Origin: Zeus faber
Lineage: Eukaryota; Chordata; Actinopteri; Zeiformes; Zeidae
Assembly (NCBI GenBank): GCA_960531495.1
Contig: OY482853.1
Span: 26,548,911 to 26,612,910, forward strand
Direction: 5' to 3'
Length of the DNA stretch: 64,000 nt
Made by a program: the position numbers and the translations under genes. The notes below the pieces were generated by a model. That model was not told the origin of the DNA. It made no database searches and saw only the letters and a list, made by a program, of their open reading frames with translations. Shown here in pieces: positions 17,919 through 55,856 of this stretch (positions are counted from its first letter, which is position 1; each line of letters opens with the position of its first letter).

Positions 17919-18218
17919 CGCTCTGTCTGTGGCCTGATGCACCCGGCTCAACAATATACCTTTAATCTTTTAATCTAATGCAGGTGAAGATACTGCCAGA
18001 CTATTATTGGAAAAGCCGTCAGTCTAGCTCTATGAGTTCACTGAGGCTACTGGCCAGTACTGTGGGCTTGGACCTTTGGTCAGAAAAAGGAACACTGAGC
18101 AGATTCAGCAGAATATCAACGACACTAAATATTAACACCACAGTACGAAAAAAAGCCCCTCAGTCAGGTTTCAGTGGTTTTCACTTGTCATCCTGCTTTG
18201 CCTATGTTCTACCAACTA

Positions 18219-19093
18219 CACTCACTGAGCACTTTATTATGAACACTATACTTATACTGGGTGGGGCCTCCTTTTGCACTCAAAACAGCCTCAATTCCTC
18301 TTGGCATGGATTTCACAAGATGTCGGAAACATTCATTGAGATTCTTGTCCATGTTGACATGATTGCATCGCCAAATACCTGCGGATTTGTCAGCTGCACA
18401 TTCATGCTGCGAATCCCCCGTCACTTCCCAAAGGTGTTCTATTGGATTCGGATCCGGTGACTGGGCAGGCCACTGAAGAACATTGAATTCATTGTCATGT
18501 TCATGAAACCAGGTCGAGACGGCTTTTACTTTGTGTCGTGGTGCGTTACCATGCTGGAAGAAGCCATTAGAAGATGGTAAATTGGGGCCATGAAGGGATG
18601 CACATGGTCAGCAACAATACTCAAATAGGCTGTGGCATTCAAGCGAGGATTGATTGGTATTAAGGGGCCCAAAGGGTGCCAAGAAATAAGTCCCCACACC
18701 ATTACACCACCGCCACCGGCCTGTTGACAGTTGACACAAGGCAGGTTGGTTCCATGGATTCATGCTGTTGCCACCAAATTCTGACCTTACCATCTGTGTG
18801 CCTCAACAGAGATTCATCAGACCAGGCTACGTTTTTCCAGTCTTCAACTGTCTATCAGTAGTTACAGAAATACTCAAACCAGCCCGTCCGGCACCAACAG
18901 TCATGCTATGGTGGAAAACACTGAGATCACATTTTTTCCCCCCATTCTGATGATTGATGTGAACATTAACTGAAGCTGCTGACCTGTATCTGTATGATTT
19001 TATGCACTGCACTGCTGCCACACAATTGGCTGATTAGCTAACTGCATGAATAAGTAGGTGTACAGGTGTTCCTAATAAAGTGCTCAGTGAGTG
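18219..19093 (-). mobile_element. Tc1/mariner-type transposon copy, decayed (family A)
   Basis: 875 bp with matching inverted ends (CACTCACTGAGCAC at the left, GTGCTCAGTGAGTG at the right) and TA flanks at 18217-18218 and 19094-19095. The minus strand carries broken pieces of a DDE transposase, including the catalytic-region signature SPDPNPIEHLWEV and a C-terminal piece MPRGIEAVLSAKGG. Stops and frameshifts interrupt it, so it is not active. A shorter copy lies at 47936-48485. Confidence 0.85.
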
Positions 19094-29898: not shown

Positions 29899-32800
29899 AT
29901 GGCGACCTGCATTGGCATGGTCGCCCGGGCTGGAGGCGCAACACTGAACGCGCTGAAGCCGGTGACACGCGTTCGGCAAGCATCGTGCCGGGTGAGCCTG
30001 GTTCGTTCGGCCCACGGCACCCGGAGCAGTCTGCTCGACCATGTCCGGGAGGGCTACAGCGACAAGCCGGACCTGGACATGCGACCGGTGTGTGAGGAGA
30101 CTGACAGAGTCATGGCCGATGTGGAGAACAGGAAGGGGGAGCTGCGAGGGGAGCAAGTCAGAGACATCGTAAGAGCGGCGGCGTCATGAACGGTTGTCTC
30201 ATTAAAATGATGTCGAAACATTCCTACATTACAATGCTCTATATATTGTATATTCTTACACGTTACCGTTATGTTTTCCACCCGGTCCCTTACACAGTGT
30301 GTGTACACACAGAATACAGAATAATAAATAGCACTTGGCTGTAAGACTAAATTAAAAAAAATATTATTTTTCCAAAAATCTATTTTTAAATAGTCAAATA
30401 TATTTTTTCAAAGTTTTTAACTGATACCTGCACACCCCCTGGTGAAAGATATAGAAAGCGACAATGAAAAATGTCTGGATGACCTCTGCACTCCTTTCGA
30501 TATGATCAAGATTCAAGATTCAAGATTCAAGATTTTTTATTTGTCACATACATATACATACTTCCATACATATATGCAGTGAAATGTAATGCAACGCACC
30601 CGGTGATAGCACACACTATGTCCTAGGAAAAAATAAAAAATAAAATAAAAGTAGAAAAATTCTTTTCTAATAGACCGACTAACTGACTCCTAAAACGTAA
30701 TGCAGTAAGTTGAATACTTATAGAATAAGATAAAAATATATAGAATAAAATACAATAAAAATAAAATGGAATAGGTTGAAGGAATATGCCTATGTATATA
30801 CAGATATGTGCATTTAAAGTGGCATGTGAATTAAAGTGGCATGTGAATGTGAATAGTGTGAGGTAGTGTTTGGGATAATACAGCACAGTATACAACAGTA
30901 CGGCGCAGCAATACGGCATCACGAACAACCCTGAACAGTGACACAGTATGCGGTACAGTATGCTACATACAGTACAGTAGGTAGTGGAGCCTAGTGCATG
31001 GCTCAGTTAGGACCCCTGGTGAGGTCAGCGTTGACAGTTCTTATGGCGTGCGGGAAAAAACTCAGTCTCAGTCTCTCTGTTCTCGCTGTGTGACTGCGGA
31101 GGCGCTTGCCTGACCGCAGCAGCTGAAACAGTCCGTTGTTGGGGTGGTGAGGATCCTTCATGATCCTGCGGGCTCTGCTACTTCACCTCCTGGTGTATAG
31201 CTCCTGCAAGGGGGGGAGGGTAGTTCCATTTTGATAACTATAAATAATGATGAAAGTATTCGGACACATACATTTGACCCGCCCTTGTCCAGCTTCACCC
31301 CCGTGTCTACGCCGCGACCACATTTGGGCTGTTGTGTCTGTGTGCGTTGCAGGTGAGAGTGTGGCGGCAGCTCCAAGCGGTGAGGGAGGACATCTTCGAG
31401 CTGGAGGCGCAGAAGCACGTAGTCAGTGAGGAAGTCAGAGCGCTGGTGGTCAGTACGACTGCCCGCACACACCCAAATCACTTACAATACGCCTGCAAAC
31501 TGAAAGAACAACAACACATAGTTATTTTCAAAGAGCTGACAAAAACATACTTTTTACCCTGACATCCAGCCTCGAACAGATAGAGGACAATCTAACTTGA
31601 TGCATGTGTATATGTATAACATTCTAATAGTTTAATGTGTATTTCCTGAACATGACACGTTGCTGCTCTCGTTTTAACAGGACAAGAATGACAAGAAGGC
31701 TCTCGCAAATGTAAGTGGGACCTCATTTAATTTCCTATTATGTGTCATTGAGGGTTAAGACAAAACACTCAAAGATAATTTACATGCATAAACGAGGAAT
31801 TTTAGACAATTAGCATGAACATTTTTTTTTAAAGAATTAAATAGAATAAAAAGTGAAGATAAAATAAATAAGAAATACTTTTCTTAAATAAATACTTATT
31901 TTTGAATAAAAGTTAATAAAGAAAACCACAAAACGAAATAGTCAGATATATAAAAATAAATAAACAAATACAAGTGTTGACACTGGTTGACTGATTAAAT
32001 TAGATTATAACATTTAATTGTCCTCATTGAGTCTTTGAAATTCTGTACGTAAGTGTAGGAAGTAGGTTTTCAGTGAGTGACTTTTTTTATTTATTTTATT
32101 TTTATTTTTTTTTAATTATTTTCTTCCATTATCCAGATTCCAGAATTCAGCCAAGCTCGTCAGAGAGGTCGAAAGATCCGCGACCGGCTCAATCAACTGT
32201 ACCCTAAAGAAAGTGAGCTGGAACGGGAGCACTACAGCCGAGCACTCAGTCTGCCCAACACCACACACCCCGACGTGGTAAAGACACAGGAACAGTCCAC
32301 TGCTGCTTTTTGAAATGGTTGCATGCAAGATATTACAGCATTTATTCCGAACACGTTATTTGGAACTCAAGCCATGTGTCCGTGTTTCCGGTTTTAGCCA
32401 ATCGGAGATGAGAGCCAGGCGACGGTGCTGGAGCTGGTTGGACAGAAGCCAGGTGACCTGCGTTTGGAGTATATAGGCTTTCTGGATGGATAGGCATTGT
32501 TTTTAAGGGACATGCTGGACTCCCGACACAGGGTTCTCACCAGGTCCTTCAGGTGCTTGACGTGGGAGAATTTCGTCCTCAGAAATTTAAGTACCGGAGG
32601 ACCTGGAAAAATGGTCCCCTTCGTGCTGATGTGCTTGAAAACTCCTAAAAAAAAAAAAAAAAAAAAAAGATCATTGAAAACCTCTGGTTTTGTTATTCAG
32701 ATTGTAATAACATTTTTCCATAATTGCTTTTCATCTCATTGAATACATAAAATCGTGGGCCCATGGGGAATAGTAAGGATCATACAGGGTTATGTCCAGT

Positions 32801-36809: not shown

Positions 36810-38140
36810 CTCTGACTTTACTGATAATAAGATACTTGTGCCCAGGAAGATTGGCTCATCTTGCTGAAGTACCGTATATCAATGAAGTGTGTGGGGGTGG
36901 GGGATGTGTGTGTGTGTGTGTGTGTGTGTCTACAGGTGGAGATGTTCGGTGTGACGGCTGATGAGACGGGGGAGGAGAGCTCTCAGCTCCTGCAGTACTT
37001 CCTGTCTCTGCAGAAGGAGATCTTCTCCTCTCTCGAGCTCCCCTACAGGTCGCTGAACGCTTTAATGTTCGACAGCCTCACTCACTCAGTCCTACATCCC
37101 CACACAATCTGCACCTGCTCTTATGACATGCATCCGGAAGATTTGTACTTTTTTTTTTGATATATGTATACATTTTCAGAGTCCTTGACATGCCAACACA
37201 GGAACTGGGTCTTCCAGCACACAGGAAGTACGACATTGAAGCCTGGATGCCGGGGAGAAACGCCTATGGGGAGGTGAATGCCATGAGGTTGCTGTATGGC
37301 TGCACCGATTTCTTTGAACACGGCCCTTGACAATGTGCAATTTTATAGTTTTAAACCATTTTATGCAGGTTTTTTTTTTTTTTTTTTTAACAATTCTAAT
37401 ATAGTGCAATCTAAACTCTTTGAAGTATAATACGAGATTCTGTTGGAATCAGCATTGTTTGACTGGAGAGACCCACAAGCATGGCTTCAATTAGTTGTTT
37501 TACAGCCCATTGTACATACTCTTTGCGTAAGGGTAAGCCAAGTAAGAACCCAACCCAAGTCAGGTGCTTTAGTGCCATTCTGTACCCACTGAGCACCACA
37601 GGACCATTTCTTTCGTTTTCTTTTTCCTCTGCATGTCAGATCTCCAGCGCGTCCAACTGCACGGACTACCAGAGCAGGCGCCTAAACATTGTGTATGAGA
37701 GGGAGGATGGCAGCCTGCAGTACGCTCACACAGTAAGGCTTGGGGCTTGGGGCGGCAGAGGTATAATCATGCAGGTCTTGCTCACATTGGCTCACCATGT
37801 GCTCTATGTGTGCACCTTCAGGTGAACGCTACGGCGTGTGCCATCCCCCGGACCATCATTGCCATCCTGGAGACGCACCAGACCAAAGTGAGTCTGATGA
37901 TGTTGCTCATCACTTTTTTTTGATTTGCTCCGCACTCTTAACACTACCAATCCCTCTTTCACCCTCTCACTCCTTGTCGTCATCTCCCTCTGTGTACAGG
38001 AGGGAAAGGTGCGCGTACCACAGGCCCTGCAGTCCTATATGGGTCTGGAAGTGATCGAGAAGCCAGCCGACACTCCGCTGAAATACATCGGCCCCAACCA
38101 GCACCACCGCCCCCCCAGGCCCGCTCCAAAGACGAGATGA
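29899..38140 (+). CDS. sars2: Serine--tRNA ligase, mitochondrial
   Basis: Exons: 29899-30168, 31353-31448, 31681-31710, 32137-32277, 32398-32452, 34158-34221, 35446-35551, 35740-35787, 35877-35985, 36495-36540, 36663-36750, 36936-37048, 37180-37273, 37640-37732, 37822-37887, 38000-38140. All splice phases agree, giving 519 aa against 518 in human SARS2. The Arg-rich, acid-poor N-terminus fits a mitochondrial targeting peptide. A coiled-coil tRNA-binding arm region follows (residues about 80-180). The class II synthetase core has motif 1 region ([11 protein letters not shown]), motif 2 ([11 protein letters not shown], about 327-337; then GLYRVHHF) and motif 3 ([10 protein letters not shown], about 453-462). 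It charges mitochondrial tRNA-Ser with serine. The adjacent ccer2 matches human 19q13 gene order. Confidence 0.96.
30507..31215 (-). mobile_element. LINE 3' fragment in sars2 intron 1
   Basis: Read on the minus strand it encodes the tail of a non-LTR retrotransposon ORF2: [19 protein letters not shown], then [20 protein letters not shown] 3' UTR follows, ending in repeated cttgaatcttgaat units (30507-30535). 5'-truncated and inactive. Related tails occur at about 41540-41960, 38215-38270 and inside the palindrome at 54664-54914. Confidence 0.8.
34244..35117 (-). mobile_element. Tc1/mariner-type transposon, decayed (family C), in sars2 intron 6
   Basis: 874 bp with inverted ends (CACCGTGTTCCAAATTATTA at the left, TAATAATTTGGAACGCAGTG at the right) and TA on both sides (34242-34243, 35118-35119). 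The minus strand carries transposase pieces: a DNA-binding part ([32 protein letters not shown]) and a DDE-region part ([14 protein letters not shown]). Broken by stops and frameshifts. Confidence 0.85.
35151..35362. mobile_element. hAT-like MITE in sars2 intron 6
   Basis: 212 bp bounded by CAGAGGTTCCCAACC and its near-complement GGTTGGGAACCCCTG. Flanking 8-mers (ctatattc and gtatatgc) are an imperfect target duplication. It sits 33 bp after the Tc1-like copy. The same terminus occurs alone at 5016-5030. Confidence 0.7.
36761..36930. repeat. CA tract and GT tract in sars2 intron 11
   Basis: CA repeats at 36761-36807 and GT repeats at about 36905-36930 within one 185-nt intron. They are complementary to each other, and the GT tract ends 6 bases before the exon 12 acceptor. 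Confidence 0.85.
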
Positions 38141-39970: not shown

Positions 39971-43840
<3,870 letters not shown>

Positions 43841-44127: not shown

Positions 44128-45687
44128 TTTTCGAAATTGCCAATCTGAAATGCAGATGTTCTCTCTGAAATCAACCTGAATGTGGCAAATCTTATGCTTT
44201 TTTTTATTCAGGAGTATTATCTGTCATGGAGGTGATTCTCACTGGGGACGTTTTCTTTTCAACGTGTAACATATATATGTACTTTGAACTTTGTGCAATA
44301 ATGGAAAACTGTGTGTAAAACCGTTTCTGCTGTTCCGACTGTTAACGTGAGCAACGTATTTCCGACATTTCAATTGAGGAATACTCAGTTTTCTCTCCAT
44401 TTCCTTAAAGGAGTGACAAGGATTGTGTTTTATCTGGCTCACGCACTGTTAAAATCCGACTGTTTTACGAGGAGCTGAGGAGACACGACGCAACGCAGGG
44501 AATTGGGCGGCTCCAGAGACGGGGCCCGACCGTTGTCCCAACCTAATGCTGTTCGGCTTGACTCCCGGGCCGCGGCCGCCGCCGTGGGGAAGCCAGGACG
44601 CCATGTACCTAAAAGCTTATAAGGTCTAAAAGTGTCGCCTCAGGTTTTCAGCCAGCTTTGCACTCTTTATCGTTAACAAGCCAAGGAGGACTAGAGAGGA
44701 GCAGGAGACACTGAAGCCATTTGTTGTCGTTTGGTAAACAAAAGAAACATTAGACATTATAAACAATAGTGCTGGTGACTGGTGAATAGTGTTACATCGT
44801 CATTTCCCTTGCAGTTACTGTTACAGTGTCACTTGTGTAAATATCATTGTTGTCTGTATAAGCCAAGGTCATAAGTAAATATGAAGCCACAGTGCCCCCT
44901 GGTGGATGGTTGATAATAGTTCACTGCGTAGGAGATTACCAAGGCCCATTTACTGCAATAAAAGGACAGTACATAGACTACAGCACAGCTCAACGCAATA
45001 ATCAGCCAAATACATCATGATAAAGTCTTTAATGTATTTTAATATGTAATAACAATGCATCAGAGTATTCTAAATATAATCTCTTTTTCTATAAATACAA
45101 GATTTACAATACATTTTGTGTATTTAAAAACTGGCAAAAGCAACCATTTCAACTTATATTGACACTTGGTAATACCACGTTTAAAAATCAGTTTCAACTG
45201 ATTTTGATTCTGTCTGATTCCAAAGATGATCAAATAATTGTTTTCACTCGAGATTAACTAAATGAATGTATTTTTTTGTTTTGCTTTATTTTCTAGAGAC
45301 GTGCAAACCAGCAGAAATAAAAGATGTAGGAAATGTCGATGAAAATAAGATAAGATAAGGGCATAGACGACATTTCAAACATAGGAAAATGACAGAAAAT
45401 CACCATTCTTAATGTTATCAAGATTGGCCAATTGGAGTGCTGTATTTTGTGCCTCTTGTATCATGTTCTATGCTACCTATTAATCAATAAATGAATAAAA
45501 AGTGTGATACGCCATTCGGTGTCCTCTCTCTCGTGTAAGTTAACTATCAATAATCGAATAATAGCAGTTTAGTGTAGCTTTTAGTGCAGCAAAGTGTAAA
45601 TGTGGGGGGTCCAGGAATTTGGTTTGTTCCTCTTGTGTGAGGGAGAGCCGCTGTGGCCCTGTCAAGTGGTTCCTGCGAATTGCCAGG
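43841..45687. other. Region between ccer2 and itpk1 (convergent 3' UTRs)
   Basis: A CA tract starts directly after the ccer2 stop (43841-43886). A TTTA tetranucleotide tract is at 44080-44130. A plus-strand polyadenylation signal aataaa is at 44957-44962. A GC-rich patch lies at about 44505-44600. The far part is AT-rich and probably contains the itpk1 3' UTR. No coding frame seen. Confidence 0.5.
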
Positions 45688-52534
<6,847 letters not shown>

Positions 52535-54824
52535 ATGTCCCGCGGCTCCAACGCCGGTTTCGACCGCCACATCACGATTTTCTCATCACGATTTTCTCGC
52601 CGGACGGACGACTCTACCAAGTCGGTGAGTCGGGGTTTCTCCCGAAAGCATTAAAGTCACAACGGCGTCGACAAAGTCATCGATCGCGACAACGATGAGT
52701 CGACATCGATAAATTGGCGATATTTTGGGGACGCTGACTCGTGGTGCTTCCTGCTGTGTCTATATTTTCATATCACGATATAAAATACCGACATATCCAC
52801 CAATACATCGGTAACGTTTCTGTCATGGGTGTTTTCAAAGGATATTTATGTGCAATATTAAGTGAAGTATAACTATGATAACGATGATAACATCACCCAC
52901 ATGCACATGCCACGACCCTCCACACACACGAGTTTGTATGGTGTCAATGTTCTCTATCCGTGAAGAGCAATTTTTACTCCAGATCCAAAGGATGTGAGCA
53001 CACCTACACAGCTTCTACCCAAAAATGATCCATTGTGCAATGAAAGAAAATGATGAATAGTTAAACTTCCCCATGATTTCATTTACAAGACTTTATCACC
53101 ATGAGGGAAGGTACCATAACGACGGTTTTGATCCTAGTGTCACCGTCATCTTCCTAAGTATAGTATAGACGAGTATGGAAGGTTGGACTAAATCATATCT
53201 AACAATAAAAAATCTTCTCAGGGAACAAATCCCCTGATATTGGGGTCCCAGAGGCGGGGTGTCAGAATCACTTCTCTATTCTGTTCTATTCTCCCCTATT
53301 CTGTGGTTGGCTTGCAGAGTATGCGTTCAAAGCTGTGGCCCAGAGTGGGTTTACAACGGTGGGAGTCCGGGGAACAGACTGCGCTGTGGTGATCACACAG
53401 AAGAAGTTGCCGGTACGATATCAAGAAACACACAGAAACACGCGCACACACACACACACACGCAGTCATGGGGGTCAGATTCGAAGCTTGCCAAACGACG
53501 CTTGACAGAGTAGCCACTCCAGCATTCTGCCGACTCGACGGAACATTAGCCGATGCCGTTGGACACATTCCCAAATGTGACACATTATATACCTTATTAA
53601 GGTTTTAGTATGAAAATGTTTATGCCGCGAAATGTATTATAATGATAATCATTATGTTATGTCGTACCCTGTCTGGACCCCAGGACAAGCTGCTGGACTC
53701 ATCCACCGTGACCAACATATTCAAACTGACCCCTCTCATCGGCTGTGTGATGACCGGACACAGCGGTGAGTGGCATTTATCACCGCCTATCACCATTTAT
53801 TACCATCGTCACCAGTTCGCTATCCATCATCCCCCTCCCCCGCCCCTCTTGCAGCCGACAGCCGCTCCCAGGTGCACCGGGCCCGCGTGGAGGCGGGGGA
53901 GTGGAGGTACAAGTTTGGGTACGACATCAACGCGGACGTGCTGTGCCGCAGGATGGCCGACATCGCTCAGGTGTACACGCAGAACGCCGAGATGAGGCCG
54001 CTGGGCTGCTGTGAGTGCCGCCCCACCGGGGTCTCTTCCTCTACGGCCTCGACATTAACCTCATTTTCAGGTGTTTGCGTCCATGGGCACCACATGACTC
54101 ACAAATTACCAGGCGGTTTTGGAGAATGTGTAGCTCTTTTTGGTTCAACAGCAACAGTTGCATAAAATCGAACTATGGGAGTGAGTCAGGGTTCTGTGGT
54201 TCCCCCACTGTACGAGTAGTTGTATTTGTTTTTTATTGCGTCTTGTATTTTATGTCATGTTACATACAGTATATTGAATATGCCCACTAGCTGTCGTTTT
54301 ACTGCTAATACTAGGAGTATTAATAAAATAATCAATTAATCCATCAGTAGAAAACAATCAAATTTGATTTGTTGAATAATTGGTTAGTTGATGTTTCATA
54401 TAATATATATATATTTTTTTTTTACATTATTAACTTATTTTTCAGTCATTTTAAATAATTAGAAAAAAACTTTTTATTTTTTGCTTGTTCAGTATACAAA
54501 TCAGTATATATCAGTAGATGGATATTTAAACACACAGATACCTATATGTTTAGTTTCCATTCCTGTATATTTTTATTTTATTTTATTTCATAATATACAT
54601 ATATTTTCATTTATTTACATTTTTACTTTTTATTCTGTTATATTTTATATATATTTTTTTTAATTGACAGTCTGAGAAAAAAAATAAAAATAAAATAATA
54701 ATAATAATAATAATAATAATTCAAGATTCAAGATTCAAGATTTTTATTTGTCACATACATATACATATGTATGGAAGTATGTATATGTATGTGACAAATA
54801 AAAATCTTGAATCTTGAATCTTGA

Positions 54825-54884
<60 letters not shown>

Positions 54885-55856
54885 TTATTTTTATTTTTTT
54901 TCTCAGACTGTCAAGCTTTTTAAAATGCTAATGGTCTGTAGATACACACCAAAAATCGCCACGACAACTTCTTAGTACAGTGGTACCACGACTTACGACT
55001 GCATCTACTTACGACTAATCCAAGATACGAGTAGCGATAGTCACGTAAATTTTGTGTTGACTTGCGACCGACTGCTCCAAGATACGACCGTGGAAATTTG
55101 CAGTTGGCGCGTCGGTGGCCAGTCAGCAGTCAGTCAGCGGGCGACCTACATGGTGTGTGCACGTAGTTCATGGCTTATCAATATTTTTTTCATATTTACT
55201 GTGTTTGTGCTGTGTATTTTGTTTATTTTCACCCTTCATGATTTTTTTTCATTTATTCCCCCTCCTTGCAGGTATGATCCTGGTGGCCATGGACCCCCAG
55301 CGGGGCCCGGTGCTGTATAAGTGCGACCCCGCCGGCTACTACTGCGGCTTCAGAGCCACGGCAGTGGGTGCCAAACACAGCGAGGCCAACACCTACCTCG
55401 AGAAGAAGCTGAAAAAGAGGCCAGAGCTGAGCCAGGACAGGACCGTGCAGGTAGGGGTAAAAATGTGTCCGTTTTCACAGTTGGGTCTGCACAGCTCCCA
55501 CAATTTCTGAGGCTTTTTGGCTGTTGAGCTTCATGGAAAACGTTCTCTCTTCCCACTCTAGTTAGCCATCTCCTGCCTCTCTTCGGTCTTGTCCATGGAC
55601 TTCAAGGCCAGTGAGCTGGAGGTGGGCTTGGTCACCAAAGAACAGCCCAAGTTCAGGTAGATTGACCGCTGGATCGCGCATCATACAGCGGCAAAGGGGG
55701 AAACATTTCACATTTCATGATGGAGCGGCCTCTGATTTTTACGTAAGACTTTCCCCCGCTCTCCCTCCCTCTTCTCTCCCCTCTCTCCCCCGCTGCAGGA
55801 CCTTATCTGAGGCGGAAATAGAAGCCCACCTGGTGGCCATCGCAGAGCGGGATTAG
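52535..55856 (+). CDS. psma6l: Proteasome subunit alpha type-6-like; exon 1 frame broken by a 14-bp duplication
   Basis: Exons: 52535-52624, 53318-53412, 53684-53765, 53855-54010, 55272-55450, 55562-55656, 55799-55856. Without the duplicated 14 bases in exon 1 the joined length would be 246 codons plus stop, exactly that of human PSMA6. The start [17 protein letters not shown] is the alpha-6 N-terminal signature. Exons 2-7 keep their frame and show alpha-6 hallmarks ([33 protein letters not shown]-terminal [11 protein letters not shown]). The alpha-6 subunit is a non-catalytic ring subunit of the 20S core. The sequence is much more diverged from human PSMA6 than expected for this conserved subunit, so I infer the duplicate often called psma6l rather than the housekeeping copy. 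As written, exon 1 shifts frame and the product would stop early; sequencing error, allele or pseudogenisation are all possible. Confidence 0.82.
52571..52598 (+). repeat. 14-bp tandem duplication in psma6-like exon 1
   Basis: The unit atcacgattttctc occurs at 52571-52584 and again at 52585-52598, inside the codons for the conserved N-terminal motif. The extra 14 bases change the frame by two. No ATG occurs upstream in the shifted frame before a stop at about 52432, so no simple alternative start repairs it. Confidence 0.95.
54664..54914. repeat. Near-perfect 251-bp palindrome in psma6-like intron 4
   Basis: The left arm begins ttgacagtctgag and the right arm ends ctcagactgtcaa; both continue inward through A/T-rich sequence and AAT (or ATT) repeats to an inverted pair of LINE tails (tcaagattcaagattcaa at 54721, mirrored to about 54825) around a loop of about 10-12 bases. 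The arms match except for the longer ATT tract on the right. Confidence 0.93.
54978..55150 (+). mobile_element. Possible MITE end (cagtggtaccacgactta)
   Basis: The segment starting cagtggtaccacgacttacg after TA, with repeated 'ttacgac' and 'agatacga' motifs, looks like the end of a fish MITE. No matching opposite end was found before exon 5. Confidence 0.4.

Follow-up and report, generated by a model that had tools for sequence, protein, structure and literature searches.

A 14-bp tandem duplication and the probable recent loss of a fast-evolving, putatively interferon-inducible PSMA6 paralogue in Zeus faber

The first coding exon of a psma6-like gene in the genome of Zeus faber (803 Mb, 153 contigs) contains a 14-bp unit twice in a row, which raises the question of whether this gene has recently lost its function, still yields a protein by another route, was dead before the duplication arose, or is broken in the assembly and intact in the animal. 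The stretch of DNA analysed here, called the window in the following, comprises 64,000 nucleotides and is part of contig C9. The gene occupies seven exons at 52535-55856 on the plus strand, and its parts are arranged as follows:

52411-52428, plus strand: IRF/ISRE-type element, its three GAAA, with a 6-bp period (52411-52426), overlap the GAAASNGAAASY match at 52417-52428
52435-52624, plus strand: open stretch in the frame of exons 2-7, beginning after a TAG at 52432; contains no ATG and, together with exon 2, carries PF10584
52535-52624, plus strand: exon 1, 90 bp, ATG at 52535, donor GTGAGT
52571-52584, plus strand: 14-bp unit, first copy, exact sequence match, also detected by TRF
52585-52598, plus strand: 14-bp unit, second copy, which puts exons 2-7 out of frame with the ATG
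53318-53412, plus strand: exon 2, open in the family frame; the ATG frame has a premature TGA at 53390-53392
53684-53765, plus strand: exon 3, intact
53855-54010, plus strand: exon 4, intact
55272-55450, plus strand: exon 5, intact
55562-55656, plus strand: exon 6, intact
55799-55856, plus strand: exon 7, intact, includes the stop codon TAG

The unit ATCACGATTTTCTC at 52571-52584 is followed directly 3' by an exact second copy at 52585-52598, both inside the 90-bp exon 1, and the period-14 run extends over 29 bp (52570-52598). TRF has detected the same repeat, and no further copy of the unit has been found on the plus strand of the window besides the two tandem ones. Read from the ATG, the spliced message consists of 54 codons followed by the TGA in exon 2, and the 54-aa product matches none of the Pfam families at E values up to 1. 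The frame of exons 2-7 is open and in phase with GT/AG borders throughout, and it encodes an alpha-6 proteasome sequence of 220 aa; neither an additional stop nor a further frame break or lost splice site has been found in these exons and their splice borders. The sequence-only reading, in which the duplication was said to break a psma6-like frame ahead of six intact, in-phase exons, thus describes the gene correctly, and its figure of 246 aa after removal of one copy is arithmetically right as a sum of lengths (90 − 14 + 665 = 741 nt). Removal of the 14 bp by splicing has been considered as well and was rejected, since this length is far below the size of a spliceosomal intron; programmed frameshifting, weighed by eye, has likewise been set aside.

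Regarding the identity of the gene, exons 2-7 match the proteasome domain PF00227 with an E value of 5.4e-45 (153.8 bits, cut-off 22.4), and nine of the ten best PDB sequences (E 1e-101 to 1e-104) are labelled alpha type-6, the tenth simply 'alpha type'. The next PDB matches are a plant chain at 7.6e-73 and then, at about 1e-62, the yeast 'alpha type-1', which we take to be the counterpart of alpha-6, while the first chain labelled alpha type-7 follows at 4.7e-27. By these matches the window gene is nearer to alpha-6 than to the other alpha subunits, and it aligns over 220 residues to human PSMA6 (PDB 1iru_A) without a gap.

The earlier reading had advised looking for a second intact psma6 in the same genome, and such a gene is present on contig C2. 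A protein search of the assembly returned 17 matches, six belonging to the window gene, five to the C2 gene and six being weak (E 0.02 or worse) and presumably derived from other proteasome genes; the search scores the best candidates only, so that a further, poorly matching copy could escape it. The C2 psma6 (L026) is complete and intact. Its exons 2-7 are equal in length to those of the window gene, and its exon 1 measures 76 bp vs 90 bp in the window gene, a difference of exactly 14 bp. Over residues 27-246, the C2 protein shares 198 of 220 residues with human PSMA6 (90%) and the window gene 150 of 220 (68%), with 144 of 220 identical between the two fish genes. Counting unique changes after Tajima has given 59 for the window gene vs 11 for C2 with the human outgroup, 34 vs 17 with the plant outgroup and 19 vs 18 with the yeast outgroup, at which depth the asymmetry is gone (the outgroup chains are presumably human or bovine, spinach and yeast). 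Judged from these comparisons, the window gene is a separate, rapidly changing paralogue of the PSMA6 (alpha-6) type, and the C2 psma6 is the more conserved of the two. The description of the gene as a diverged paralogue has accordingly been borne out, as C2 is intact and the larger share of the divergence from human falls on the window copy.

A protein that changes fast in comparison with C2 is also what a gene already dead or decaying would display, with the duplication as a late neutral accident, and of the 86 sites at which human, plant, yeast and C2 all agree, 14 are indeed altered in the window gene (among them K45T, P110N, E145P and E146Q), vs 3 of 75 altered in C2 in the converse control. 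Many of the 14 altered residues are chemically mild, however, exons 2-7 are free of any further stop, frame break or splice loss, and differences at third codon positions exceed those at first or second ones two- to threefold (52, 38 and 111 differences at positions 1, 2 and 3 of 220 codons). Together with dN of 0.24 and dS of 1.41, the latter being so high that the ratio is coarse, the codon-position differences point to long purifying selection as the likely past of this sequence, and we regard the late accident in a dead gene as highly improbable.

The duplication itself is not a chance repeat. Perfect complex tandem duplications of at least 12 bp have been found in none of 12 order-1 Markov simulations of the window, vs three in the real window (30814, 46452 and 52570), and four occur in 116 kb of other sequence fetched from the same genome, a set that partly consists of mutually tandem copies. 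The 17-bp tandem duplication at 30814-30848 is the reverse complement of L030:3573-3607, so that the same repeat stands at two distant places; the pair is probably part of a dispersed repeat and no local event, which leaves two duplications in the window and three in the 116 kb. The 14-bp repeat exceeds chance and is a mutational product of a type found elsewhere in the genome. This type of mutation is ordinary, and the position in a coding exon is the notable part. Another short tandem repeat, also perfect (GCGGTCCAC, 2.7 copies, TRF), lies at 52505-52528 and ends 6 bp upstream of this gene's ATG.

If the second copy were an error of assembly or consensus and the animal's gene intact, the rest of the gene would be expected to be intact in frame and splice borders, as it is, and the locus is represented by one assembled copy without a second haplotype for comparison: no second allele is present in the assembly, and a second copy of the locus in the form of a haplotig has been rejected, the 431-bp query of promoter and exon 1 having matched itself alone. 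The 14-bp unit is neither a homopolymer nor a microsatellite, however, and exact complex duplications of this length are an unusual type of assembly error. Furthermore, the C2 psma6 is unbroken, and so are two other frames of the window, an F-box one of 623 aa and a kelch one of 536 aa. Taken together, an error of this kind is considered unlikely.

A further question concerns the N-terminal signature of alpha subunits. The second 14-bp copy retains 17 protein letters, and PF10584 is still matched, since HDFL, supplied by the shifted end of the first copy ahead of ITIFSPDG, takes the place of the FDRH of the family. The signature has not been found joined to a start codon and is confined to the frame without an ATG; the alpha N-terminal motif is thus not destroyed but severed from its start codon. 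The PF10584 match covers 23 of 23 positions with 50.9 bits, vs 52.9 for the intact C2 protein, and upstream of the second copy this frame stays open over 50 codons, back to the TAG at 52432, so one may postulate that an alpha-6 protein is still made in the frame of exons 2-7, from a start codon other than AUG or from a spliced exon further upstream. Yet this open stretch contains no ATG, only the near-cognate codons ACG at 52435, ACG at 52480, ATC at 52585, ACG at 52588 and ATT at 52591, and the out-of-frame ATG has a good context with A at −3. The sequence-only reading had named transcripts with an alternative, frame-restoring first exon as a finding that would overturn it; an in-phase ATG exon of up to 400 nt with a GTRAGK donor is absent from 51400-52530 and 52625-53300. 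Continued production of the protein is therefore judged very unlikely on these grounds. The bolder version, in which the duplication re-founded the gene with a near-cognate start and created an alpha-6 subunit, probably interferon-induced, with a new gate tail, deserves very little credence.

The region upstream of the gene bears on its presumed regulation. The IRF/ISRE-type pattern GAAASNGAAASY has one match in the 64-kb window, at 52417-52428 and 118 bp before the ATG, and this match is contained in a triple GAAANN run that begins 124 bp before the ATG; a further triple GAAANN stands at 37611 on the minus strand of the window. The proximal promoter of the window gene thus carries, by pattern, an IRF/ISRE-type element, in a 5' region that is rich in purines, which raises the odds of GAAA motifs. 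As a positive control, GAAASNGAAASY has been found in six of six psmb copies, 243-419 bp upstream of the motif GTTIAGVVFK by which these copies were chosen in L028-L044 (five on C1, one on C4); they are close tandem copies, hence non-independent, and a subset of the psmb matches of the genome. At least one match is present in 14 of the 17 fetched 10-kb loci, L040, L041 and L042 being without, while 12 other loci of the same genome (54,887 nt including the C2 psma6, with about 10 kb counted twice, as L001-L003 lie inside L040 and L041) contain no match to GAAASNGAAASY and one triple GAAANN. Neither pattern occurs in the 6-kb C2 psma6 locus, at which no ISRE-type promoter element has been detected, unlike at the window gene. 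Given the presence of the element before the psmb copies and its absence from the C2 locus, the window gene carries a putative promoter mark that is common to the psmb copies and absent from the conserved psma6 locus. The window element reads GAAAGAGAAAGT and the psmb copies have GAAAGTGAAAGC or similar; the latter are presumably closer to the ISRE consensus, from which we take the window element to deviate at one position, with A instead of a pyrimidine. Many proteasome beta matches lie at C1:6.20-6.66 Mb and C4:32.54-32.56 Mb (L028-L039), and from its psmb copies the C1 block looks like an expanded MHC class I region, of which C4 would hold a further site.

Accounts of the immunoproteasome usually centre on the beta subunits, and the alpha ring forms the gate of the proteasome. 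An alpha-6 paralogue that evolves rapidly and has an IRF/ISRE-type promoter agrees with the notion that in some fish the alpha ring, too, is varied under interferon. Comparable descriptions exist for Atlantic salmon, in which, according to the passages available from the respective papers, PSMA6.2a is up by log2 2.9 after IFN-gamma while most of the other proteasome subunits do not reach 1.2, PSMA6.1a and 2b are given as 'ns', 1b as 0.5 and 3 as 0.3, with the authors stating that transcription alone cannot settle functional relevance (PMC7573153); in a further study the values with IFN-gamma are 3.75 for PSMA6.2 and 2.82 for PSMA6.5, and five PSMA6 copies are expressed, which its authors find surprising (PMC12234341). 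As portrayed there, PSMA6.2a, PSMA6.2 and PSMA6.5 are extra copies that rise after interferon-gamma in the manner of psmb8 to psmb13, and they are reported as expressed; the window gene is likened to them by description and not as an orthologue. In the excerpts concerned, psma6 is also listed among the up-regulated immunoproteasome components of salmon skin (PMC8987027), and a PSMA6-like protein is noted in fish skin mucus in a context that concerns no inducible copy (PMC6336924). The zebrafish psma6l has been selected together with psme1, psme2, psmb8a and psmb9a from an LPS-responsive proteasome cluster; this PSMA6-like paralogue is likened to the window gene by description alone, and the passages on it make no mention of a frame break (PMC9751191). 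Among the listings and passages returned by the literature searches, no report of a frameshifted psma6-type copy has been found.

The reading that we favour, and consider probable, is that a tandem duplication has recently abolished the function of an alpha-6 paralogue which is dispensable and probably interferon-inducible, the conserved gene being intact at another locus. A short tandem duplication would have arisen in the first coding exon of this fast-evolving paralogue, as real DNA of the sequenced animal, and the paralogue itself may be induced by interferon through its IRF/ISRE-type promoter element. With the stop in exon 2 of seven, five exon junctions lie downstream, and because such a stop is expected to trigger nonsense-mediated decay, the message would presumably be removed. 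As the constitutive subunit would come from the C2 gene, the loss would be tolerated, and the inducible alpha-6 variant would be left with a null, either a segregating allele or a young pseudogene. The earlier reading had called the event recent, which agrees with exons 2-7 and their splice borders being free of further disabling changes; the 95% bound on its age amounts to 0.047 to 0.028 neutral substitutions per site (about 3-5% divergence) under a rough neutral model that assumes 0.05 to 0.15 indels per substitution and takes constraint to end with the duplication. From the three options that it had offered, the diverged paralogue with a second intact psma6 on C2 has gained support, and none of allele, pseudogene and assembly error is singled out. 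The frameshift itself is an ordinary loss-of-function event; a natural null of an inducible alpha-6 would reveal whether the variant matters.

Several further features of the window have been observed. Intron 4 contains a 251-bp fold-back at 54664-54914, with inverted arms of 57 nt at 100% and 89 nt at 92%, whose two sides differ in the length of their AAT/ATT runs; it is a recent fold-back element or a fold-back artefact. A 391-bp GA repeat (51771-52161) lies between the psma6-like gene and an ITPK1-like gene on the minus strand, for which Pfam matches are located at 45540-46313 and 50037-50399. Open frames at 18209-18607 and 48079-48462, both on the minus strand, resemble what we take to be pieces of a Tc1/mariner transposase. 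The plus strand carries a very acidic 510-aa open frame at 42223-43755, without a Pfam match in the part searched (42559-43700), which we assume may belong to a granin-type gene.
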